Positions 6,151 through 36,300 of a DNA stretch of 58,837 nt are shown one piece after another. The DNA is from an uncultured Saccharospirillaceae bacterium (GTDB lineage: Bacteria; Bacteroidota; Bacteroidia; Flavobacteriales_D; CAJJDF01): the NCBI GenBank assembly GCA_950054195.1, contig CATLPG010000015.1, forward strand, positions 1 to 58,837, read 5' to 3'. Position 1 is the first letter of the stretch; the number at the start of each line of letters is the position of its first letter. Position numbers and translations under genes: made by a program. The notes beneath the pieces are model-generated. The model saw only the letters and a list, made by a program, of their open reading frames with translations, made no database searches and was not told the DNA's origin.

Positions 6151-9100
6151 TTATCTAATCAAATTAATATGCCCATCTCTATATTTAATTGGAATCGTCC
6201 CTTTTACTCGGTATCGCATGATATAAGCATATGTTTCTGCCTCGTTTATTCCTCCTCTATATTCACCATCCCAGGCTGTTTCTCCTTGAACAGTGCTTGT
6301 ACTTGTATAAACTAAAATTCCTTGTCTACTATATATACGAAGCTCAAACAAATCTAGTTCGCATGAAAATTGAGGAATTAAAACTTCATTAATACCATTA
6401 CCATTAGGTGTAAAGGCATTTGGCAGATAAACATCACATGAACAGTCGGACTCAGTAACTAACAATGTATCACTATCAGCTCCGCATCCATTAGTGAGTG
6501 TAACTATATATTCCCCAAAATCAGTAATATATCTTGATTGAAAAATTGTGCTATCATCCCATACATATGAAACTCCTGGAGTTGTTACATCAACAACAAA
6601 TCCCTCTCCTTCACAGATAGCGGTATCATTTCCTAAGTTTGCTACTGGTGTGTATTCGTAAGAAATAGTAATATCATCTTGCTTCATACAATTACCTACT
6701 GTAACTGTTGCTGTATAAGTTCCTGCACCTGTTACTTGAAACACACTGTCCATAGATCCCGTATTCCATTGATAACTACTCGCACCACTTGTTCGTATAT
6801 CTAATAGCAGTATATCGTCATTACATAATGTGGTGTCATTTCCTAGATCTAAAGGAAAAATTGTATAGTCCACATTAATTGTATCCCTTACGATGCATCC
6901 GTTTTGATCTACCTCCACATGATATTCTCCTGCTGAAGTAACAGTATAAGTAGGTTGGGAGCTATTATCTTGCCAAGTATAAATACCATTTGGAACAGTT
7001 GCATCCAGTATTAATTGTTCATTTTCACAAAGTGTAGTATCATTTCCTAACTCAATTGAAGCTCCATTTACGTAAGTAACCTCTAAAGAATCTATTGTAG
7101 AGCAACTACCTATACTTACTTCTACGATATAATTTCCTGTTGTATCAACAAAGTAGGTAGCATTTGTACTTGCATCTTGCCATTCGTACGATGCATTTGG
7201 AGTTGTTGCGTCTAAAGTTAGTGTTTGACCAATACAAAGTATGGTATCGTTACCTAATATATCGTCAGTAATATCAAATTCATCGATAAATACGGTTATG
7301 CTATCTCTACAGCCACTAGCGTTATCTTCTACAGCAATAGAGTATGTTCCTCTTGCCAGGTTTTTAATGTTTAAGGTAGCAACTACTGTTCCATCTAGGT
7401 ATCTAGTATATGATCCTGATCCTCCAGTTATAAATAAGCCTGAAATTGCTCCAGTATTGTTGCCACAAGAATCAGATGTAAGTGTTTTGAAAGTAGTATC
7501 TAACTGTGGTACATCACTACCCTCTACCACTATGTTGCTTACTGTATCTGCACAACCAACTGAATCGTTAGCTATTAACTCTAGTGTTGTGCCTTGTAAT
7601 CCCGTTGTATCAAGATTAGTTGTAGGAGTTCCATTCCAAAAATAAGAGAGATTTCCTAAGCCTCCACTAACTGTTATTCCAGTAACTGAGCCATCCATTC
7701 CTGCACATGATTCATCTTGAATAACCATAGCTGAAGTATCAATTGTAATTGGAGATGAAACAGTAATTCGAATACTATCTTTAAACGGTATTCCACATCC
7801 TCCAAAGTAATACGTTGTTGTAGATGTTAAAATAGGTGTTGTAAATGAATTACCCGTATGAATAGGTGTTTGAGAAAAATAACTATCGAACCATTCTAGC
7901 TGACCAGTACCTGTTGGTAATGCTCCTGAAATTATTGGATTTAAAGTTACACTAGCTCCACCACAGATGGTTGTATCATTTCCGTAGAAGTGATAATTTT
8001 TTGGCAAGGTTTGGATTAAACCACTATCTCCAGATGAAGCTCCATTTTCTGGGAATTCAGTTAATCCATCTGAGTTTGTAGTTCCATTAACGCCTCCAGA
8101 AACATCAAAATTCCAAGAACCAGTATTAGAAACACCTATGTAACCACCTCCACCACCTCCACCAGTACCTTGAGCTTCTGTAGTATTAGCAAATAGTCCA
8201 ACATCTATAACTTGGCTCCCTCCTTCCCCACCTCTAGCGTAAAGGTTAGTACCTGTAATGTTTCCTGCTGAAGTTACAACTATTGTGCCTCCGGCACCTC
8301 CTCCTCCACTACCATCAATATTTCTAATCTCTCCTATTCCAGCTGTAGCTTGATCGGAGCCAAAACCTTCATTACCATTGGCTATTAAGTTATTAGCTAT
8401 TACATCTCCAAACGTATGTAGAATAATAATACCTGCTGCATTTCCTCCTGAACCGCCTTCCCCATCGTTTTGGTGTCCTGCTCCTCCTGCTCCTCCAAAA
8501 AAAATCCTTCCAGTTGAATAGTCTAAGGGCCTACCTCCTGTTCCGCCATAAGCATTACGTAAGTGACCTCCCCATGCACCATCCCCTGGTGGAGTAGTTA
8601 GAGCATTTTCATCATTTTGACTAAAGCAATAGCCTCCTTTTCCACCTCCACTTGATCTAGTATTTGATAAACCTGGTTGCTCTAAATTCCATGCTGGTGA
8701 AGAGCTTGTTACGCCAAAACCTGTCCAAGCAACTCCACTTGATGCATTTGCTCCTCCTGCTCCTCCTGCATTGTGGGCATTTCCAGCCCCTCCTCCATTT
8801 GCTGGAGCAGCTCTTCCAAACTCTCCTCCGTAAATATCATATTCACTCTGATATCCAGCTATACTCTCCCCTTTTTCGCCTCCATAATCTTCAGTTGTAC
8901 CTGTCCAAGTTGGTTGAAAGCCTCCAGTATTTATATTAATTATACCTCCTCTAAATCCTTTTCCTGAAACATCTACTTGTCCTGTTATATTGGTAGTCCC
9001 TAAAACCTCAACTACCACAATTCCGCCTGTGTTACCATCCCAATCGTCACAGGTTAATGTGCCCGCTACATCTAATGATTGATACCTAGGCACTCTAACA

Positions 9101-14207: not shown

Positions 14208-14263
14208 TTGCTCGTGATACTGATTTACATGTTCTAAATAACCTACTTATTTTATTTATTTTT

Positions 14264-14277
14264 ACAACGGTTGTTAC
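14264..14277. promoter_or_regulatory. Candidate Crp/Fnr operator 1 (upstream of the regulator gene)
   Basis: ACAACGGTTGTTAC matches GTAAC-N4-GTTAC at 8 of 10 fixed positions, with a perfect right half-site. It ends 12 bases before the ATG of the Crp/Fnr gene, a position that suits autoregulation. It also forms an imperfect dyad ACAAC/GTTGT. Confidence 0.5.
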
Positions 14278-14289
14278 AGATTTATAGAT

Positions 14290-14922
14290 ATGAAAAAGAA
14301 GCTTAACGAAAACTATGGATATATTTTTGAGCAAGCACTACTCAATGAAATTGAAGAAGTTGGGAAGCTTCAGCATCTAAATGAGGGTGAAACACTAATC
14401 AACATTCAACAAAAGGTACTTTACATGCCTCTGTTATTAAATGGTGCAATTAAAATAATGAGAGAAGATGATCGTGGGGATGAGCTTTTACTTTATTACA
14501 TCGAAATTGGAGACACCTGTTCCATGACTCTTAACTGCTGCATGGGTGAATCACTAAGTGAAATTAAAGCCATTGCTGAAGTTGACACTGAAGTTATTCT
14601 TATACCTATTCAAAAAATGAAAGAATGGCTTAGAAAATATGATTCATGGATGAAATTTGTGTTTGATAGTTTCTATAACCGAACAAACGAAATGCTAGAA
14701 GCTATTGATACTCTCGCTTTTTTAGACATGAAAGAGCGATTAATAAAATATTTAAAAGACAAAGCCTTTATTAATCATACAACATCCTTAAACGCTACTC
14801 ATAGAGACATCGCATCTGACCTTAACACATCTCGTGTAGTTATTTCAAGGTTACTGAAAAAGATAGAGCAAGAGAAGAAAATTAAACTCTATAGAAATAA
14901 AATTGAAGTGCTAGAAGTGTAA
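14290..14922 (+). CDS. Crp/Fnr-family transcriptional regulator with a Cys cluster
   Basis: A 210-residue regulator. Residues 15-130 form a cyclic-nucleotide-binding-like beta-roll, followed by the dimer helix (about 100-140) and a C-terminal winged helix with the recognition segment ASDLNTSRVVISRLLKKIE. Cys77, Cys83 and Cys84 (CSMTLNCCMG) sit in the beta-roll, where a sensor would bind its signal. They are not arranged like the Fnr iron-sulfur ligands. The next genes handle sulfane sulfur, and GTAAC-N4-GTTAC-type sites precede this gene and the two after it. I infer a local regulator sensing persulfide/polysulfide or a related redox signal through these Cys residues. The family assignment is firm; the signal is a hypothesis. 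Confidence 0.92.
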   Translation: MKKKLNENYGYIFEQALLNEIEEVGKLQHLNEGETLINIQQKVLYMPLLLNGAIKIMREDDRGDELLLYYIEIGDTCSMTLNCCMGESLSEIKAIAEVDTEVILIPIQKMKEWLRKYDSWMKFVFDSFYNRTNEMLEAIDTLAFLDMKERLIKYLKDKAFINHTTSLNATHRDIASDLNTSRVVISRLLKKIEQEKKIKLYRNKIEVLEV

Positions 14923-14932
14923 CATCTGTTAC
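14919..14932. promoter_or_regulatory. Candidate Crp/Fnr operator 2 (perfect palindrome before the exporter gene)
   Basis: GTAACATCTGTTAC is a perfect GTAAC-N4-GTTAC palindrome. It covers the stop codon of the regulator gene and lies 22 bases upstream of the TAGCTTTG promoter element of the exporter gene. In a genome of about one third GC such a site is expected only about once per megabase by chance. Confidence 0.65.
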
Positions 14933-14954
14933 TTTTCGCTAAAATCGTAAGCCA

Positions 14955-14962
14955 TAGCTTTG
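14955..14962 (+). promoter_or_regulatory. Candidate -7 promoter element of the TauE-like gene
   Basis: TAGCTTTG matches TAnnTTTG exactly and ends 4 bases before the ATG at 14967. With the usual spacing, transcription would start at or next to the A of the ATG, implying a leaderless mRNA. The -33 region (TTTTC around 14933-14937) is a poor match to TTTG and directly abuts operator 2. Confidence 0.45.
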
Positions 14963-14966
14963 AGTT

Positions 14967-15773
14967 ATGGAATTACTGGATATAGTTGGTTATTTTGGAG
15001 CTGTATTAATTGGTGTTATATTAGGACTAATTGGTGGTGGTGGCTCTATTTTAACCGTACCAATATTTGTTTATTTATTAGGTATCGATCCTGTTTCTGC
15101 AACAGCCTACTCTTTACTTGTTGTTGGAACAACATCTGGCATTGGAGCAATTAGGTTTTCGATAAAGGGCTTAGTTGACTATAAAACCGGAACTGTTTTT
15201 GCCGTTCCTGCGTTGCTGGCAGTTTATATTACTAGAAAGTATTTGGTTCCCGCAATACCAAATGTAATATTCAATTTTGAAAACTTTACTTTATCAAAAG
15301 ATGTGGCAATCATGATGTTTTTTGCATTAATTATGCTGATTGCATCTATTTCAATGATTAGGGGACGCAAACAAAGTCAAAATGAAGACAAAAGATCAAA
15401 ATTAAATATCCCAATTATATTATTGGAAGGAGTATTTGTAGGTATTATAACCGGTTTAGTTGGTGCAGGTGGAGGATTTTTAATTATTCCTGCCTTAGTT
15501 TTGCTTGCTAAACTCCCAATGAAAATAGCCGTAGCTACTTCACTGTTAATTATTTCAGTAAAATCATTAATAGGGTTTATTGGTGATATTCAAAACTTAA
15601 CTATTGAATGGGGTTTCATCCTTGGCTTTACCTCACTTTCAATTGTGGGAATTTTCATTGGTATCTATCTAAGTCAATATATCAAGAGTAATAATCTAAA
15701 AATTTTATTTGGATGGTTTGTATTGGCTATGGGCATCTACATTATAATCAATGAAACACTCTTCCTTATGTAA
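14967..15773 (+). CDS. TauE/SafE-family (TSUP) membrane exporter
   Basis: A 268-residue integral membrane protein with about eight hydrophobic segments in two related halves. Each half begins with the family's glycine signature: GLIGGGGSILTVPIFVYLLG near residue 20 and GLVGAGGGFLIIPALVLL near residue 165. TSUP proteins move sulfite, organosulfonates or other sulfur species across the inner membrane. In the staphylococcal cst operon a TauE protein accompanies the persulfide dioxygenase CstB, and the same pairing is seen here. I infer export of sulfite/thiosulfate formed by the next enzyme. The gene starts 44 bases after the regulator and has its own candidate operator and promoter. Confidence 0.92.
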   Translation: MELLDIVGYFGAVLIGVILGLIGGGGSILTVPIFVYLLGIDPVSATAYSLLVVGTTSGIGAIRFSIKGLVDYKTGTVFAVPALLAVYITRKYLVPAIPNVIFNFENFTLSKDVAIMMFFALIMLIASISMIRGRKQSQNEDKRSKLNIPIILLEGVFVGIITGLVGAGGGFLIIPALVLLAKLPMKIAVATSLLIISVKSLIGFIGDIQNLTIEWGFILGFTSLSIVGIFIGIYLSQYIKSNNLKILFGWFVLAMGIYIIINETLFLM

Positions 15774-15783
15774 CTTTTGTAAC
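15770..15783. promoter_or_regulatory. Candidate Crp/Fnr operator 3 (before the dioxygenase-rhodanese gene)
   Basis: GTAACTTTTGTAAC matches GTAAC-N4-GTTAC at 9 of 10 fixed positions. It contains TTTG (15776-15779), spaced 18 bases from CGACTTTG (15798-15805), which resembles the TAnnTTTG -7 element in its last four bases. A protein bound here would cover the -33 element and block transcription. Confidence 0.55.
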
Positions 15784-15838
15784 AAAAATTAAACAAACGA
15801 CTTTGTAAATTTAAGTGTAGACAAAAGAAATTTAAATC

Positions 15839-17260
15839 ATGAAAGTAGAACAAATATATACCGGATGTTTAGCTCAAGGAGCATATTACATTGAAAGTAA
15901 TGGAGAAGCTGCTATAATTGATCCATTAAGAGAAGTACAACCATACATAGATATGGCCAGTAAAAGAGGAGCAAAAATTAAATATATTTTTGAGACTCAC
16001 TTTCATGCTGATTTTGTAAGCGGGCATAAGGATTTAGCAGAAAAAACAGATGCTACAATTGTGTACGGACCCACAACAATGAAACTAGGGTTTGATGCTC
16101 ACGTAGCTGAGGATAACGAGATTTTCAAACTAGGAAATGTTGAAATCAAACTTATTCATACTCCAGGGCATACACTAGAAAGCTCTTGCTATTTATTGTA
16201 CAATGAAGAAAGTCAAGAAGAGTCAATATTTACAGGCGACACTTTATTTATTGGTGACGTTGGCAGACCCGACCTTGCTCAAAAAATAGCTACTGATTTA
16301 ACTCAAGAAAAATTAGCCTCAATGATGTTTGATTCTTTACGAAACAAAATCATTCCTCTACCAGATCATATTACAGTTTATCCTGCTCATGGTGCTGGAT
16401 CTGCCTGTGGAAAAAATATGAGCAATAAAACATCTGATAGCTTGGGAAATCAAAAGAAGACTAACTATGCACTTAATACCAAATTAACAAGAGAAGAGTT
16501 TATTAAGGGATTAACAACTGGACTAACTCCTCCTCCTGGCTACTTCCCAGAGAATGTTTTAATGAATATACAAGGTTATAATCCAATAGATGAAGTGATT
16601 TCAAACGGAACAAGGAAACTTTCAATTACTGAATTTGAAGCGGCTATGGTTGATACTAACACATTAATCATAGACACTAGAAATGAGAAAGACTTTGTCA
16701 AAGGGTTTATACCTGGCTCATTATTTATAGGACTTGACGGATCATTTGCTGTTTGGGCTGGCACACTTATTAAAGATATCAATCAAAAAATTTTACTAAT
16801 AGCAGATAAAGGTAGAGAAGAAGAAGCAGTTACACGGTTAGCTAGGGTTGGATATGACAACACCATAGGTTATTTAGATGGAGGTATTGAATCTTGGAAA
16901 GAAGCAAACAAGTCAATTGACACCATTAAATCTGTTTCACCAGAACAAGCTTTTGAACTTATGAATAAAGAAAATTTAACTGTACTTGATGTAAGAAAAG
17001 TAAATGAGCACACTAGTGAGCATATTTTAGGAGCTAAAAATATTCCGCTAGATTATTTTGACAAACATTTAACAGAAATTAAACCTGACGAAAACCACCT
17101 TGTTCATTGTGCTGGTGGCTATCGCTCAGTAATATTCACCTCTATATTAAAAGCAAAAGGCTATAATAATTTGATAAACATTGAAAAAGGATTCAAAGGA
17201 ATTCAAGAAACTGGATTGTATAATATATCTGCATATGTGTGCCCCACAACACTAGCATAA
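15839..17260 (+). CDS. Persulfide dioxygenase-rhodanese fusion (ETHE1/CstB-like)
   Basis: A 473-residue fusion. Residues 1-235 are an ETHE1-type metallo-beta-lactamase domain with His54, His56, Asp58, His63 (HFHADFVSGH), His111, Asp134 and His184, enough for the mononuclear iron site of persulfide dioxygenases. Residues about 260-355 are a rhodanese fold whose active loop (ADKGREEE) has no Cys, a pseudo-rhodanese. Residues about 370-470 are a second rhodanese with Cys424 in CAGGYRS. This three-part order is that of staphylococcal CstB, which oxidises low-molecular-weight persulfides and releases thiosulfate. A cytosolic role in sulfide/persulfide detoxification is therefore likely. Two single rhodaneses follow. 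Confidence 0.93.
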   Translation: MKVEQIYTGCLAQGAYYIESNGEAAIIDPLREVQPYIDMASKRGAKIKYIFETHFHADFVSGHKDLAEKTDATIVYGPTTMKLGFDAHVAEDNEIFKLGNVEIKLIHTPGHTLESSCYLLYNEESQEESIFTGDTLFIGDVGRPDLAQKIATDLTQEKLASMMFDSLRNKIIPLPDHITVYPAHGAGSACGKNMSNKTSDSLGNQKKTNYALNTKLTREEFIKGLTTGLTPPPGYFPENVLMNIQGYNPIDEVISNGTRKLSITEFEAAMVDTNTLIIDTRNEKDFVKGFIPGSLFIGLDGSFAVWAGTLIKDINQKILLIADKGREEEAVTRLARVGYDNTIGYLDGGIESWKEANKSIDTIKSVSPEQAFELMNKENLTVLDVRKVNEHTSEHILGAKNIPLDYFDKHLTEIKPDENHLVHCAGGYRSVIFTSILKAKGYNNLINIEKGFKGIQETGLYNISAYVCPTTLA

Positions 17261-17270
17261 ATAACACAAC

Positions 17271-17573
17271 ATGAGTATAATAAAAAACATTAAAAAATCT
17301 CTCTTTGGAGAAAGACCAGACTTTAAGTCATTAATTGCGAATGGAGCAATGGTTATAGACGTTAGAACACCTCAAGAATTTAAAGGAGGGCATTTTGAAG
17401 GAAGTAAAAACATACCTCTCCCTACAATAAACCAACAAATTAATAAACTTAAAAACAAAGAAGTTATACTTGTTTGCAGGTCTGGGATGAGAGCTGCACA
17501 AGCAAGGGGAATTTTAAAAAGCCAAGGAATAATTGCTCATAACGCAGGAGCATGGCAAAACTTATATAGATAA
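17271..17573 (+). CDS. Single-domain rhodanese
   Basis: A 100-residue rhodanese-like protein with the substrate loop VCRSGMRAAQ; the loop Cys (about residue 65) would carry the persulfide. The N-terminal VIDVRTPQEFKGGH and central NIPL motifs are standard. It lacks a secretion signal and so is cytosolic. It lies 10 bases after the dioxygenase fusion and 13 bases before the next rhodanese, in one transcript. I infer that it shuttles sulfane sulfur between thiols as substrate or product for the fusion enzyme. Confidence 0.92.
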   Translation: MSIIKNIKKSLFGERPDFKSLIANGAMVIDVRTPQEFKGGHFEGSKNIPLPTINQQINKLKNKEVILVCRSGMRAAQARGILKSQGIIAHNAGAWQNLYR

Positions 17574-17586
17574 TAAATAAACAATT

Positions 17587-17895
17587 ATGAAAAACGTGAC
17601 GCCTAACGAGTGGAAAAAACTCATCAATGAAACAGACAATAAGTTGATAATAGATGTTCGTACACCTCAAGAATATCAAGGAGGAAAACAAAAGGAAGCT
17701 ATTAATCTAGACATTTTTGACTCAGAGAAATTTATTTCTGAAATTGAAAAAATTGATAGACAAACTCCATTATTTATGTATTGTAGAAGTGGAGGAAGAA
17801 GCGGCCAAGCTTGCACAATAGCATCGTCAAAAGGGTTTAAAGAAACCTACAACCTTATAGGCGGGATGATGGAATGGGATGGAGAAGTTATTTAA
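17587..17895 (+). CDS. Single-domain rhodanese
   Basis: A 102-residue rhodanese with IDVRTPQEYQGG and the active loop YCRSGGRSGQA. It is the last gene of the sulfur operon and is followed by a strong hairpin terminator. It is clearly related to, but not a close copy of, the rhodanese at 17271-17573, so the two may prefer different sulfur donors. Cytosolic; no signal peptide. Confidence 0.92.
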   Translation: MKNVTPNEWKKLINETDNKLIIDVRTPQEYQGGKQKEAINLDIFDSEKFISEIEKIDRQTPLFMYCRSGGRSGQACTIASSKGFKETYNLIGGMMEWDGEVI

Positions 17896-18594: not shown

Positions 18595-19944
18595 GTGAAA
18601 ATTTTTATTGTTGACGACAACCAAGATTTCTGTGATTTACAGAGTTACTACTTGAGCCAAAATAAAGCTTTTGAAATCGAATGCTTCTATGATGGAAAAT
18701 CGTTAATATCAGCTCTCAGAGACAAGCCAAATTTAATACTGCTCGATTATTACCTTCCCGATTATAACGGACAAGATTTAATGAGAATAATTAAAGAAAA
18801 ATCTGATCAGAGTGAAGTTATTTTAGTTTCAGGACAAGAAGACGTTAGCTTGGCAGTTAAACTACTAAAAGAAGGAGCTTACGATTACATAGAAAAAAAT
18901 GAAAACACCCATAAACGTTTATGGACAATCACTAATCATTTATACAAAACGTTTTCTCTCGAGAAAAAAAACAAAGAATTACAAGAGAAACTAAACGAAA
19001 AAAAAGATAAAAACCCTATCATCGGAAATTGTGATGCACTCCTAAACACCTTATCAATAGCTAATAAAAGTGCAAAAACAAACATAAACATATGGGTTAC
19101 AGGCGATACAGGAACAGGCAAAGAATTACTTGCTTCATATATACATCAAAACTCTAAATATAAAAACAAACCATTTGTAGCCGTCAATATAACTGCAATA
19201 CCCTCAGAGCTAATAGAAAGCGAACTTTTTGGACACAAAAAAGGAGCTTTCACAGGAGCAAGCAGTGATCGAATGGGGAAATTTGAAAAAGCTAACGGAG
19301 GTACTCTTTTTCTAGATGAAATCGCAGAACTAGACATTTCACTTCAAGCCAAACTACTTAGAGCCATACAAGAAAAGGAAATTACTAAATTAGGCGAAAA
19401 TAAAGTGCGCAAAATCCATTTCCGTTTGATTGTTGCAACTCATCAAGACCTAAAAAAACTAGTTGTAGAAAAAAAGTTTAGAGAAGACTTATATTACCGG
19501 TTAATGGGAGTGAAAATTGAACTACCTCCACTGCATAAAAGAGGGTCTGATATCATTTTACTTAGCCAACATTTTATTAAAACTTTTGCCAAGGAAAATG
19601 ATATGCAAGCCAAAACACTTACTGACGAAAGCAAAAAAAAGCTATTATCATATTCATTCCCAGGAAACATAAGAGAGCTGAAATCAATTATTGATTTAGC
19701 TATGGTTCTAAGTGAAGGCCCTACAATCGAAGACAAACACATCCAGCTCGAAGGTATCAATACATCTAAAGCCCCTTTAATTAATGATCCAAACGAAAAT
19801 AAAACGCTCAAACAATATACTAGAGAAATTGTACAGCATTACCTTAACTCGAACAATGGAAACATTGAAAAAGTCGCAGAACTATTAGATATTGGCAAAT
19901 CGAGCATATACAGAATGTTAAAAGAAAACGAAGTAAGCAGATGA
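18595..19944 (+). CDS. NtrC-family sigma-54-dependent response regulator
   Basis: A 449-residue regulator with three domains. The receiver (1-115) has phospho-acceptor Asp51 in LLDYYLPDYNG. The AAA+ domain (140-375) has Walker A GDTGTGKE (170-177), the sigma-54 contact loop GAFTGA intact at 217-222, and Walker B GGTLFLDE (235-242). The C-terminal Fis-type helix-turn-helix (NIEKVAELLDIGKSSIYRM) binds enhancer DNA. It starts with GTG, placed just before the first receiver strand (KIFIVDD). It opens a five-gene cluster and overlaps the next gene by ATGA. A candidate sigma-54 promoter follows the cluster at 22007, making the surface-protein operon a likely target. Confidence 0.94.
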   Translation: MKIFIVDDNQDFCDLQSYYLSQNKAFEIECFYDGKSLISALRDKPNLILLDYYLPDYNGQDLMRIIKEKSDQSEVILVSGQEDVSLAVKLLKEGAYDYIEKNENTHKRLWTITNHLYKTFSLEKKNKELQEKLNEKKDKNPIIGNCDALLNTLSIANKSAKTNINIWVTGDTGTGKELLASYIHQNSKYKNKPFVAVNITAIPSELIESELFGHKKGAFTGASSDRMGKFEKANGGTLFLDEIAELDISLQAKLLRAIQEKEITKLGENKVRKIHFRLIVATHQDLKKLVVEKKFREDLYYRLMGVKIELPPLHKRGSDIILLSQHFIKTFAKENDMQAKTLTDESKKKLLSYSFPGNIRELKSIIDLAMVLSEGPTIEDKHIQLEGINTSKAPLINDPNENKTLKQYTREIVQHYLNSNNGNIEKVAELLDIGKSSIYRMLKENEVSR

Positions 19945-20255
19945 CAAAAAAAGAGGCCATGTTAATTTTTCTGGAAAAATTTAACAACGATAATAATTTA
20001 GCAGAGGATTTTTTTATAAAATCAACAACTAGACTTAAAGAGGATCTAGAACTACTAAATCATTCAATCAACTCAAATAAAATAGAAGACATTAAGTTTC
20101 ATGTGCATAAAATGAAATACACCTGCTCACTATATAAATGGGAAGAACTTGTTGCTTTAGCTAAGGAAATTGGATTAGAAACTTCTAATCAAAATATCAA
20201 TTTAAAATCTAAGCAGTTCTTATCTATACTTCAAGAAAACTTATCCAAATTCTAA
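19941..20255 (+). CDS. Hpt-like phosphotransfer protein
   Basis: A 104-residue, all-helical, acidic/basic protein. The stretch HVHKMKYTCSLYKWEELVALAKEIG matches the pattern of the central Hpt helix (HxxK followed by small residues and a second helix), with His56 and Lys59 as the likely phospho-acceptor pair. Other Hpt glycine positions are replaced by Tyr/Thr, so the match is not strong. The ATGA overlap with the NtrC-type gene and the nearby kinase and receiver support a phosphorelay role, with this protein carrying phosphate between the two receivers. Predicted cytosolic. Confidence 0.6.
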   Translation: MTKKEAMLIFLEKFNNDNNLAEDFFIKSTTRLKEDLELLNHSINSNKIEDIKFHVHKMKYTCSLYKWEELVALAKEIGLETSNQNINLKSKQFLSILQENLSKF

Positions 20256-20320
20256 AAATTAGAAAACAAAAACAATCCTCTAAAATAAAAGATTTAAAAT
20301 CAGAAGAATAATTAATTGGC

Positions 20321-20689
20321 TTGATTATTGATGAACATGATTTAGTGGTTGAATTTAAAAACAATATCGTTTACTTGAACTATCTAGACTCATTATCTAT
20401 TGATAAATTAGTTCCTATACTAGCTGAGGTAGAAGAAATTATTAAAGACGTAGAAGATCCCGTTCATTTAGTCGCTGATATAACAAAACTGAACAACATC
20501 TCCATTGAGAGTAGAAAATATGGCATAGAATGGACGAGATCTACCAAAATTAATAAAATTGCAGTTTTTGGAGGAAATGTATTTATGAAGCACCTCATAA
20601 ATCTTATAATAATGGCATCTGGAAGGAAAGAGAATTTTCGTATTTTTAAGACAAAGCACGAGGCTGAAGAATGGATTCTCAATCATTAA
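20321..20689 (+). CDS. STAS/SpoIIAA-like small protein
   Basis: A 122-residue protein with alternating strands and helices (VVEFKNNIVYLNY, then HLVADITKL, then KIAVFGGNVFMKHLINLI), which looks like a SpoIIAA/STAS fold; I do not recognise the exact family. It starts with TTG at 20321. No ATG, GTG or other TTG exists between the preceding in-frame stop and this position. The end overlaps the histidine kinase gene by 19 bases. STAS proteins often pass signals through binding or Ser phosphorylation, but I see no clear conserved Ser, so its role in the phosphorelay is unknown. Confidence 0.65.
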   Translation: MIIDEHDLVVEFKNNIVYLNYLDSLSIDKLVPILAEVEEIIKDVEDPVHLVADITKLNNISIESRKYGIEWTRSTKINKIAVFGGNVFMKHLINLIIMASGRKENFRIFKTKHEAEEWILNH

Positions 20690-21576
20690 ATAAAAAAATA
20701 AAGGCCCTTTCAAAGGATTTATACCCACACCTCATCAACTCCATGCTTGGAGACTTCAGCAAAACTGATGAATTTATTATTCCTGAGGAAGAAGACGAAC
20801 TAACCCCTATTCGTTCTGGATTTAAAATCATTTTTGATGGAATTAACGAAAAAATCAATGAAATTGAGAAAATAAATGATTTATTGAGTAAACGTAATGA
20901 AGAACACCTAGAAACCATCAAAAGACTAGAAGAATTCACTTATATTTCATCACATGACCTAAGAGCCCCAGTTGTTAACGCCAAACTTCTAGTTGATCTT
21001 CTAAAGGAAGACAAATATCCATCAGGCACCATTATTGAAAAACTTGATCAATCAATCAACAACTTGGATAACACCCTCAATGATTTAATTAATATAATTG
21101 CTAGAACCAAGCCCCAACACCAATTAGTAGAAGTTAATCTCGAAAATACCTTTGAACACATTTGGAAAGAAGCATCCAAAAACTACTCCACAGATCACAT
21201 TAAAATAAACACAACTTTTGAGCAAAACACCATGGAAACATCCAAGGTTTACATAGAAAATTTATTTTATAACCTTATAAGTAACAGCCTTAAATATCAA
21301 GACCCAAAGAAAAAACATTTAGTATTAAACCTAAAAACCGAGTCCACACCTAACAGCATAATTATAACCTATTCCGATAATGGACTAGGCTTAAACCTCC
21401 CTGATGACCAAGAAAAACTCTTCGGTATATTTACAAGAGCGCATGATCACATCCAAGGCAAAGGAATTGGAATGTATATCGTTAACCAAAACATTAAAGA
21501 ATTAGAAGGCTCAATAGATGTGGAAGGAAGCCTAAATAAAGGATTGTCGTTTACAATTAAAATCCCCAACCGATGA
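20671..21576 (+). CDS. Soluble sensor histidine kinase
   Basis: A 301-residue kinase with no membrane segment. Residues 1-60 have no recognised sensor domain, 55-90 form a coiled coil, and the HisKA domain has phospho-acceptor His95 in SSHDLRAPV. The catalytic domain shows the N box (NLISNSLKYQD), G1 box (YSDNGLGLNL) and the GKGIGMYIV G2 box. The lack of a PAS or membrane sensor means the signal must arrive through a partner, possibly the STAS-like protein encoded just upstream. It overlaps the next receiver gene by ATGA. Phosphate would flow to that receiver, the Hpt-like protein and the NtrC-type regulator. Confidence 0.92.
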   Translation: MDSQSLNKKIKALSKDLYPHLINSMLGDFSKTDEFIIPEEEDELTPIRSGFKIIFDGINEKINEIEKINDLLSKRNEEHLETIKRLEEFTYISSHDLRAPVVNAKLLVDLLKEDKYPSGTIIEKLDQSINNLDNTLNDLINIIARTKPQHQLVEVNLENTFEHIWKEASKNYSTDHIKINTTFEQNTMETSKVYIENLFYNLISNSLKYQDPKKKHLVLNLKTESTPNSIIITYSDNGLGLNLPDDQEKLFGIFTRAHDHIQGKGIGMYIVNQNIKELEGSIDVEGSLNKGLSFTIKIPNR

Positions 21577-33354: not shown

Positions 33355-36300
33355 CACTTCCTATAGTCGTTTTATTATCTGGCCCTTGATCGGTAATTTT
33401 CATTACCCAAATATAAACTCCTTCTGGACAAAGCACATTATCATGTGTACCATCCCATGAATCTCCCTCTTCTACTTTAGACCAAATAAGCTCTCCCCAT
33501 CTATTAAATACTTCAAACGAATAAGTAATATCAGTTAAACCAGAACCACTAATCGTAAACACTTCATTTTTATTATCCTCATCTGGAGTAAAGGTATTCG
33601 GCACGAAAAAGATTAAATCATTTTCTATTATCACATCATGACAAGTAGAATCAGAACAACCTTGTGTATTTTCTGCTAATAAACAAGTTGTATAGGTACC
33701 TGCCTGTAAATTCGGATATTCATAAACAAAAACTGTTCCTGTACCTTCTTCAACACCTTCTACAAACCATGTAAAATTAGTTGCATTAGAAGATTGCTCC
33801 ACGTGTACGATCTCTGGGTTTAATATAGTTGTTGTTGGAGGAGTGCTCGTAAAATCAGAAATTACTGGTAACGGTCCATTAACAACAAAATTTGTATCAA
33901 ATGTACATCCGTTATCATCTGTTACCGTTAAAGAATAATTACCTGCACATGCTCCTGTTGCTACATTTGTAGTATTTCCAGCTAATGTTCCAGACCAAGC
34001 ATAGTTTGGAGTTGTTGCTATACTACCTCCAATAACTGTAGCTGTTATTTCACCATCGCAAGTATTATAACACAATGGATCAACCACATTTAAAGTTGCA
34101 TACATCCTAACTGGCTCTTGAATGGTTACGGTTGTATCAAACGTACAACCACTAGCATCTGCAACACTAACATTATATGTTCCTGCTGCAATATTATTAA
34201 ACACTGCTGTTGATTGAGGTCCGCTACCTATATCGTAAGCGTATGGAGCTACACCTCCAGTAGCTGAAAGTGTTATTCTTCCGCTGTTATCACCATTACA
34301 GATCAGGTCAACAGTAACTACTGAAACATTAATTCCTGCTGATTGTTCTAAAGAATCTTGCTGGGTAATTTGACATGCTGTTCCATCCTCTACCCATAAA
34401 TCATACACACCTGCAGTTAAGCCAGTAAAAACAGGATTTGTAGAAGTTGTTGCACCTCCATCTATACTATAATTAAAGGTTGGTGTACCTCCTGTAACAA
34501 CAAATTCAATTTCTCCGTTAGGATTACCACATGTTGGATCAGTTTTATTTACAGTGAAAGAAAATCCACTCGCTCCTAACGTAAACGTAGTATCCTTTGA
34601 ACACATCCCTACAGAATCATAAACACTTACTGTATATGAACCTGATGAAAGTGCTGTTAAATCTTCAGTTGTTCCATTAGCACCCCAATCGTATCCAAAA
34701 TTTCCAGAACCTCCTGCGACTGTGATATCAATTGCCCCATCAGAAGCACCACATGTAGGATCCGTAACTACTGCTGATATCGTAAAATTACAACAACTTT
34801 GAGCTAAAGTAGCCGTTCCTGTTTCTATACAACTTGCAGCATCCCTTACAGATAAATTATATGTTCCAGCCCCTAAATTAATAATGGAATCTGTTAACAC
34901 ATAAGTTGCTCCATTATCGGTACTATATTCTAGTGGTGCTGTACCACCAGTTACATCAAACTTAATTGAACCGTCTGTATTTCCACAAGTTGGGTCAATA
35001 GTTGTTGTTGTAAATATAAATGCATTGGAACTGATTGATATGGTAGTATCACGACTACACATTTGACCAGAATCATAAACAGTTACTTGGTAAGTTCCAG
35101 ATGGCAATGCAGTTAAATCTTCAGTAGTTCCATTTACTCCCCAATCGTATGAATAAGGACCTGTACCATTATTTACAGTTATATCAATGGCACCATCAGA
35201 AGCACCACAAGAAGGGTTTGTTACTGCTGCTGAAAGGGTGAAATTACAGCAAACAGGTAATACAGTAATATTAGCAGTATTTGTTTCAGTTACACAGTTG
35301 TGTTGATCGGTAGCAGATAACGTATATGATACGTCAGCTGTTGGACAAATATTTGGGTTTAGAATGTTAGGATCTGAGAGTCCTGTGGTTGGTGTCCAAG
35401 TAAAATCTGCTGGGTAACTAATTTCTGGATCATCAAAAGAAATTTCCCAACCATTCAAGAATCCAGTTGCAAAGTTACCTGCACCAGCGATCTTAATATT
35501 CCATACCCCATTAGGATCACATCCATTTAAGTTACTAAATGGTTCAGCTGGAGCAAATGTTCCTGTGTAAGGCGAAGAACCCGTTGATATAGCTGCTCCT
35601 CCAACGTCAAAACACATATTTGTTATGGTGTTCCCTGTTAAATCACCAACATTGACTAGGTTTATACTGCTTCCTCCCGGGCATTCAAGAATTATTTCTG
35701 CTCCTGACAAGTCAATTGAGCTTGGAGGAAAACCACCAAATCCACTAATCGTAATTCCTGTTAAACATACAGAAGTGATTGAATTTGTAGTTAAAGCTGT
35801 GGTATTAAGATCAGTAATATTAATGTTCATATCTGCCTCAAACGAAGCTCCAATACCTCCTACTGCGTCAATTTCAGCATTTTCATACGTTGGTGTTTTT
35901 GCCGGACTTGTTATTACTTTTGCTTCTCCGTTAAGATCAATACATTCTCCAGCACAAATGGAGGTATCACCTCCTGCATTTACCACAACATTAGGCAATC
36001 GAACTGGTACAGTAATAGATTCTGTACAAGTACTCGTGCCATTTGTAATTTGAGCTGTATAGGTTTGATTAGCAGTTATACATTCTGGTGTTGGGTGATC
36101 TCCACCTCCAGAACCTACTGGATAACTATAACTATCGTGCAACCAGGTTATTTGAGCACTAGGATCATTTAATGTGATTTGAACATTATCGAGGCCCCAA
36201 TGGTCGTATTCTGGTCCTGTAACATCGTCTTGATGCCATTGAATCATTGTATTAGTTGTTTGAGCTCCAGGTGGAATAGTTACGCAGTAATTATTCCAGT

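Follow-up and report, generated by a model that had tools for sequence, protein, structure and literature searches.

A Crp/Fnr-superfamily protein as the probable class II activator of a sulfur-detoxification regulon in Bacteroidota

The window, which is the whole stretch of 58,837 nucleotides analysed here, carries a regulator gene (crp) followed by genes for a probable sulfite exporter (tauE), a persulfide dioxygenase-rhodanese fusion (pdo) and two single-domain rhodaneses, the latter probably on the pdo transcript (Table 1). After this sulfur operon, at 18595-21576, come a gene for a sigma-54-dependent response regulator and downstream Hpt-like and histidine-kinase-like genes. The initial annotation had placed GTAAC-N4-GTTAC palindromes at 14264, 14919 and 15770, each located 5' of one of three consecutive genes, crp, tauE and pdo. 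These positions, the gene order and the match counts of 8, 10 and 9 of 10 all proved correct.

Table 1. Features of the crp-tauE-pdo locus and exact intergenic sites in the rest of the genome
Feature	Position	Strand	Basis or remark
Weak palindrome before crp, ACAACGGTTGTTAC	14264..14277	+	8/10; over predicted crp transcription start
crp, Crp/Fnr-superfamily regulator, 210 aa	14290..14922	+	Pfam HTH_Crp_2, cNMP_binding; homologue conservation; AlphaFold model
Predicted tauE operator, GTAACATCTGTTAC	14919..14932	+	Exact palindrome, 10/10; starts within crp stop region; predicted centre -41.5; exact intergenic site of own genome
tauE promoter -7 box, TAGCTTTG	14955..14962	+	22 nt after operator 14919-14932
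tauE, TauE/SafE family exporter, probable sulfite exporter	14967..15773	+	Pfam TauE, 145 bits
Predicted pdo operator, GTAACTTTTGTAAC	15770..15783	+	9/10; overlaps tauE stop codon
pdo promoter -7 box, TAAATTTA	15806..15813	+	22 nt after operator 15770-15783
pdo, persulfide dioxygenase-type metallo-beta-lactamase fused to rhodanese domains	15839..17260	+	Pfam Lactamase_B and Rhodanese x2
Single-domain rhodanese	17271..17573	+	Pfam
Single-domain rhodanese	17587..17895	+	Pfam
Exact intergenic site, own genome	C10:36069		Before DUF983-rhodanese-lipoprotein operon
Exact intergenic site, own genome	C67:11536		Before YgaP-like membrane gene

The product of crp falls in the Crp/Fnr superfamily, with a cNMP-type sensor domain and a C-terminal Crp-type HTH. 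PF13545 scored 33.3 bits, above its cut-off, and PF00027 scored 26.3 bits against a cut-off of 27.5 in the protein scan and 27.8, above the cut-off, in the genome search. The AlphaFold model (mean pLDDT 87) has the CRP fold with a TM of about 0.78, and the nearest structures are 3dv8, CRP and NtcA. The regulator was assigned to no equivalog family among those tested; it reached 45.2 bits against 266 for cAMP-activated CRP.

Conservation was assessed over 120 homologues from Bacteroidota (about 30-61% identity) and also checked in 54. In the recognition helix, S181-R182-V183-V184-I185-S186-R187, the residues R182, S186 and R187 are invariant in 120/120 homologues, as is C77 in the sensor region. 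C83 is present in 99 and C84 in 97 of the 120, with the C-x5-CC motif in about 80%. These three are the sole cysteines of the regulator; on a reading of the family alignment they align with the cAMP phosphate-binding cassette of CRP, the least confident region of the model (pLDDT about 67). The genome encodes 8 cNMP-domain proteins, and all 7 paralogues lack both the C77/C83/C84 motif and an Arg at the CRP R180 position. In more distant Bacteroidota homologues (L168-L181), C77 is kept and GG replaces C83-C84 (PGETCIMSFLGG), and some of these loci still have GTAAC sites; the CC pair may tune sensing rather than define it.

At position 183, 105 of the 120 homologues carry Val and the other 15 Glu. 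Val183 was considered as a determinant of GTAAC specificity and rejected, since exact composite sites (palindrome plus -7 box) are borne by the Glu183 homologues L194 and L195. Only a tendency is left, with an exact site at 54 of 105 Val183 loci and 2 of 15 Glu183 loci, and no alternative palindrome emerged near the Glu183 regulator genes.

The three palindromes of the window are not of equal standing. In mononucleotide shuffles of each gap (3000 trials), a site with at most one mismatch arose in 0.3% of cases for the 14919 gap and in 0% for the 15770 gap; on these figures and on the conservation described below, both sites are judged to be real and far from chance. Before crp, a site with at most two mismatches arises in 4.7% of gap shuffles. 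An exact or one-mismatch counterpart 5' of crp was found in few of 54 orthologues, and no -7 box lies 22 nt downstream of 14264-14277. A -7-like TATTTTTA at 14257-14264 would place the crp transcription start beneath the weak palindrome. The self-control of crp proposed for this site is thus weak, as the match is 8/10, a -7 box at the right distance is missing and the site is rarely conserved. The 14264 site is probably a chance match; the alternative is an autorepressor site, and autorepression of crp through it would be possible, with no backing from conservation.

The orthologous crp loci came from two sources, 399 Flavobacteriales genomes and named genome records. In an unbiased palindrome count covering all 1024 five-base half-sites at 13 spacings in the 200 bp after crp of 54 distinct loci, GTAAC/N4 was the top palindrome (18/54 loci). 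The runner-up, TAACA/N2, with 6 loci, represents the interior of that palindrome. Across orthologous loci GTAAC-N4-GTTAC is frequent after crp, between the regulator gene and its targets as at 14919, and before tauE, pdo, DUF983 or SulP genes, and only occasional before crp itself. The presence of the motif before orthologous operons had been set beforehand as one point on which the proposal could fall, and the motif does recur there.

Exact sites combined with a -7 box were found in 113 of the 399 genomes, against 3 for the reversed control. Of the 47 genomes that have a close regulator orthologue, 33 contained such composites, against 7 of the 149 that lack any orthologue (Fisher p about 1e-19, uncorrected for relatedness). 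The correspondence is incomplete on both sides: the exact composite is absent from 14 of the 47 genomes with a close orthologue, and seven genomes have composites with no orthologue detected.

Among 86 site contexts, in which divergent gaps are counted in both orientations, an exact TAnnTTTG begins 22 nt past the palindrome end in 35, and in 59 when one mismatch is allowed. At all other spacings from 0 to 44, the exact box was seen in 0-1 of the 86 contexts. The nominal probability of the 22-nt spacing is about 4e-77, the loci being related to one another. The mean identity of the spacer sequences is only 28%, which is near random, so the spacing appears to be constrained and is not explained by common descent. 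None of the 35 promoters with the exact 22-nt TAnnTTTG pairing has a TTTG at -33.

In Flavobacterium psychrophilum, TAnnTTTG spans -12 to -5 (PMC9723704). Combined with the 22-nt spacer, this position means that the palindrome covers -48 to -35 and is centred at -41.5. The 22-nt spacer, the computed centre and the lack of a -33 TTTG in 35/35 promoters correspond to the layout of a class II activator-dependent promoter, and they make activation of tauE and pdo likely and repression unlikely. The earlier suggestion that the 15770 site covers a -33 element depends on a TTG paired with the poor box CGACTTTG; the conserved partner is TAAATTTA, 22 nt away. The predicted transcription start of pdo is at about 15818; the one of tauE, at about 14967, is also the position of the tauE ATG. 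The tauE mRNA may thus be leaderless; most relatives would carry leaders of about 12-22 nt.

Within the own genome (3.27 Mb), exact GTAAC-N4-GTTAC occurs 7 times per strand against 6 in the control. The motif alone is therefore not enriched, and discrimination comes solely from where a site lies and from the -7 box paired with it. Three of the 7 exact sites are intergenic, and all three lie 5' of sulfur genes (Table 1). A composite search ranked these three best, tauE first, with pdo next at two mismatches. With up to three mismatches the composite gave 54 matches against 86 in the control, a level of noise; the top matches at up to two mismatches were mostly sulfur operons. Other two-mismatch composites, one before DUF1573 genes and two within ORFs, were judged to be chance.

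Genes downstream of 57 composites, classified by Pfam, included TauE (16), PDO-type metallo-beta-lactamase (11), rhodanese (9), DUF983 (5), thioredoxin (4) and SulP (3). About half of the 57 loci were picked via crp; the 30 from a genome-wide pattern search had similar gene content. In relatives, sites also precede genes for SQR, a YeeE/YedE-like transporter, cytochrome bd subunit I and a sulfite-oxidase-like protein, all named by eye from sequence. An SQR similar to the protein of locus L067 was not found in the own genome, in a search run without a positive control. The regulon proposed in the initial annotation stands in its tie to the Crp/Fnr protein; it is not local, as at least two further operons lie elsewhere in the genome.

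Several arrangements in relatives widen this picture. At 8245-8326 of locus L068, tauE and a cytochrome bd oxidase subunit I-like gene diverge from a gap that holds two GTAAC-N4-GTTAC sites, and on the side of the bd gene there is a -7 box close to consensus. Cytochrome bd oxidase resists sulfide, and the L068 gene may for this reason belong to the regulon. Maribacter loci have extra exact sites (L058 1028; L059 4095 and 12356; L061 3890 and 12402; L062 3871), which precede genes for a membrane protein (MKKDFETK..GWAFIVSA) and a sulfite-oxidase-like protein; the membrane-protein gene has a TAnnTTGA box at the 22-nt spacing from the site. In L018, L019, L020, L029 and L033, crp either follows a site-bearing DUF983 gene directly or is transcribed divergently from a rhodanese gene with the site in the gap between them, an arrangement which would give positive autoregulation.

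The reading best fitting these observations, held with good confidence, is that the Crp/Fnr protein would bind GTAAC-N4-GTTAC and, as a class II activator, switch on a sulfur-detoxification regulon spread over the genome. The palindrome that it would occupy, centred at -41.5, would take the place of the -33 element, and the sigma-A -7 box TAnnTTTG follows after 22 nt. In the own genome the regulator would act on tauE, the pdo-rhodanese operon, the DUF983-rhodanese operon and the YgaP-like membrane gene, a programme in which sulfane sulfur would be oxidised and sulfite exported. The sequence basis of this reading covers the motif, the spacing, the regulon content and the co-occurrence with the regulator; from these we infer that the sites are bound by this protein and that binding activates, and more weakly what its signal is.

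The probability that all three palindromes arose by chance in AT-rich intergenic DNA is negligible. Two-mismatch sites are common, with 44 in the window against 23 expected in shuffles, and the near-equal genome counts of the exact motif and its control point the same way; recurrence across genomes at a fixed spacing and with fixed gene content rules this out for 14919 and 15770, and chance is likely for the 14264 site only. A cluster of two-mismatch sites at 33393-35764 of the window, probably in repetitive coding sequence, may explain part of the excess over shuffles. Repression is improbable too. A regulator covering the promoters of tauE, pdo and itself, and released by sulfane sulfur as CstR, SqrR or BigR are, would resemble the regulators of sqr/pdo-type operons named in the cited papers, such as CstR, YrkD and BigR, which are repressors (PMC9918477; PMC5823870), and the start of crp transcription would fall within the weak 14264 site. 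A repressor, however, does not require one exact spacing, yet the 22 nt are invariant and the -33 box is missing in 35/35, and the 14264 site is not conserved. The repression of its own operon, as first proposed for this regulator, is thus unlikely at tauE and pdo.

Very improbable, finally, is that the sites serve another Crp/Fnr protein, such as an HcpR-type nitrosative-stress regulator, with the neighbouring crp a bystander. HcpR2 has the recognition motif GTAACnnnnGTTAC (PMC1274295), to which GTAAC-N4-GTTAC is identical; the resemblance to HcpR-type signals mentioned in the initial annotation is borne out at the level of the motif only. The number of cNMP-domain proteins in the own genome also leaves room for a different binder. 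Against this, the 7 paralogues do not have the Arg at the CRP R180 position, hcp (PF03063) had no match in the own genome while controls were positive, and over the 399 genomes the sites track this orthologue and precede sulfur genes, not hcp.

The signal is a separate question, and here the claim is tentative: the activator could well be a Crp/Fnr sulfane-sulfur sensor, in which persulfide at the invariant C77, usually within C-x5-CC, would switch on a Bacteroidota-wide regulon. TauE is a sulfite exporter, and PDO makes sulfite from persulfide. A similar gene set is elsewhere under sulfane-sulfur sensors (PMC9918477), and together with the roles of TauE and PDO this makes sulfane sulfur the most economical signal. 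Cys77, often accompanied by Cys83 and Cys84, would be the best sensor candidate, because it is invariant, lies in the position of the cAMP pocket and is absent from the own-genome paralogues. About 20% of homologues lack C83/C84, and sites are retained by some of these, which leaves C77 as the only possible universal sensor.

The protein may also be the right activator with another signal at C77/C83/C84, such as redox, a metal or Fe-S cluster, heme or nitric oxide, which is possible but doubtful. Only the signal is at issue here, and the other parts of the preferred explanation would stand unchanged. FNR employs a Cys-bound Fe-S cluster, and since C77 alone is invariant, the C-x5-CC motif is not essential. 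HcpR and PgRsp of P. gingivalis bind heme (PMC12040651). Against another signal stands the content of the regulon, whose genes deal with sulfane sulfur and sulfite, as do the persulfide-regulated clusters described elsewhere (PMC9918477). A Crp/Fnr sulfane-sulfur sensor was not found in a literature search limited to open-licence papers, and an earlier description is possible.

HcpR2 is a member of the same superfamily as the regulator, with the identical consensus, and occurs in Bacteroidetes, but it has Pro at CRP position 181, where Val183 (Glu in some relatives) is found here, and it regulates hcp rather than a sulfur-oxidation regulon. Within the open-licence literature, PMC1274295 is the only paper printing the motif in the searched spellings. 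In canonical promoters of cyanobacterial NtcA, GTAN8TAC has its centre at about -41.5, and for ilvG and glnA a distance of 22 nt to the -10 box is reported (PMC3898017). GTAAC-N4-GTTAC is a case of GTAN8TAC, and the class II gap and the Arg-Val of the recognition helix are shared as well; however, the regulator scores 42.4 bits against the TIGR03697 equivalog cut-off of 244.95 (NCBIfam), no nitrogen-control regulon is seen here, and the effector pocket has a conserved Cys. With E. coli CRP it shares the fold and a class II palindrome centred at -41.5, whereas the cassette is replaced by the C77/C83/C84 segment and the half-site is GTAAC, not TGTGA.

The N-terminal Cys cluster that holds the [4Fe-4S] of FNR is absent, none of the regulator's cysteines being N-terminal. 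CstR/YrkD, SqrR, BigR and FisR control PDO, rhodanese, TauE, thioredoxin and SQR genes and have conserved cysteines, but their folds are unrelated to the Crp/Fnr fold (CsoR, ArsR, sigma-54 activator) and they are mostly repressors. PDB 3dv8, a Crp/Fnr protein of Eubacterium rectale, is the best match in sequence and fold (25% identity) and has Cys aligned with C77 and C83, with Glu instead of Val in the recognition helix. To our knowledge, no function has been published for it.

The promoter grammar of GTAAC-N4-GTTAC, 22 nt and TAnnTTTG finds sulfur-detoxification genes from sequence, including the uncharacterised DUF983. The HcpR2 motif alone is no marker of nitrosative-stress genes in Bacteroidota. 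The regulators that the cited literature names for persulfide dioxygenase operons come from other protein families, and most of them are repressors. Should it hold true, an activator from the Crp/Fnr superfamily whose pocket carries an invariant cysteine would represent another solution, found in one of the phyla most abundant in sea and soil.
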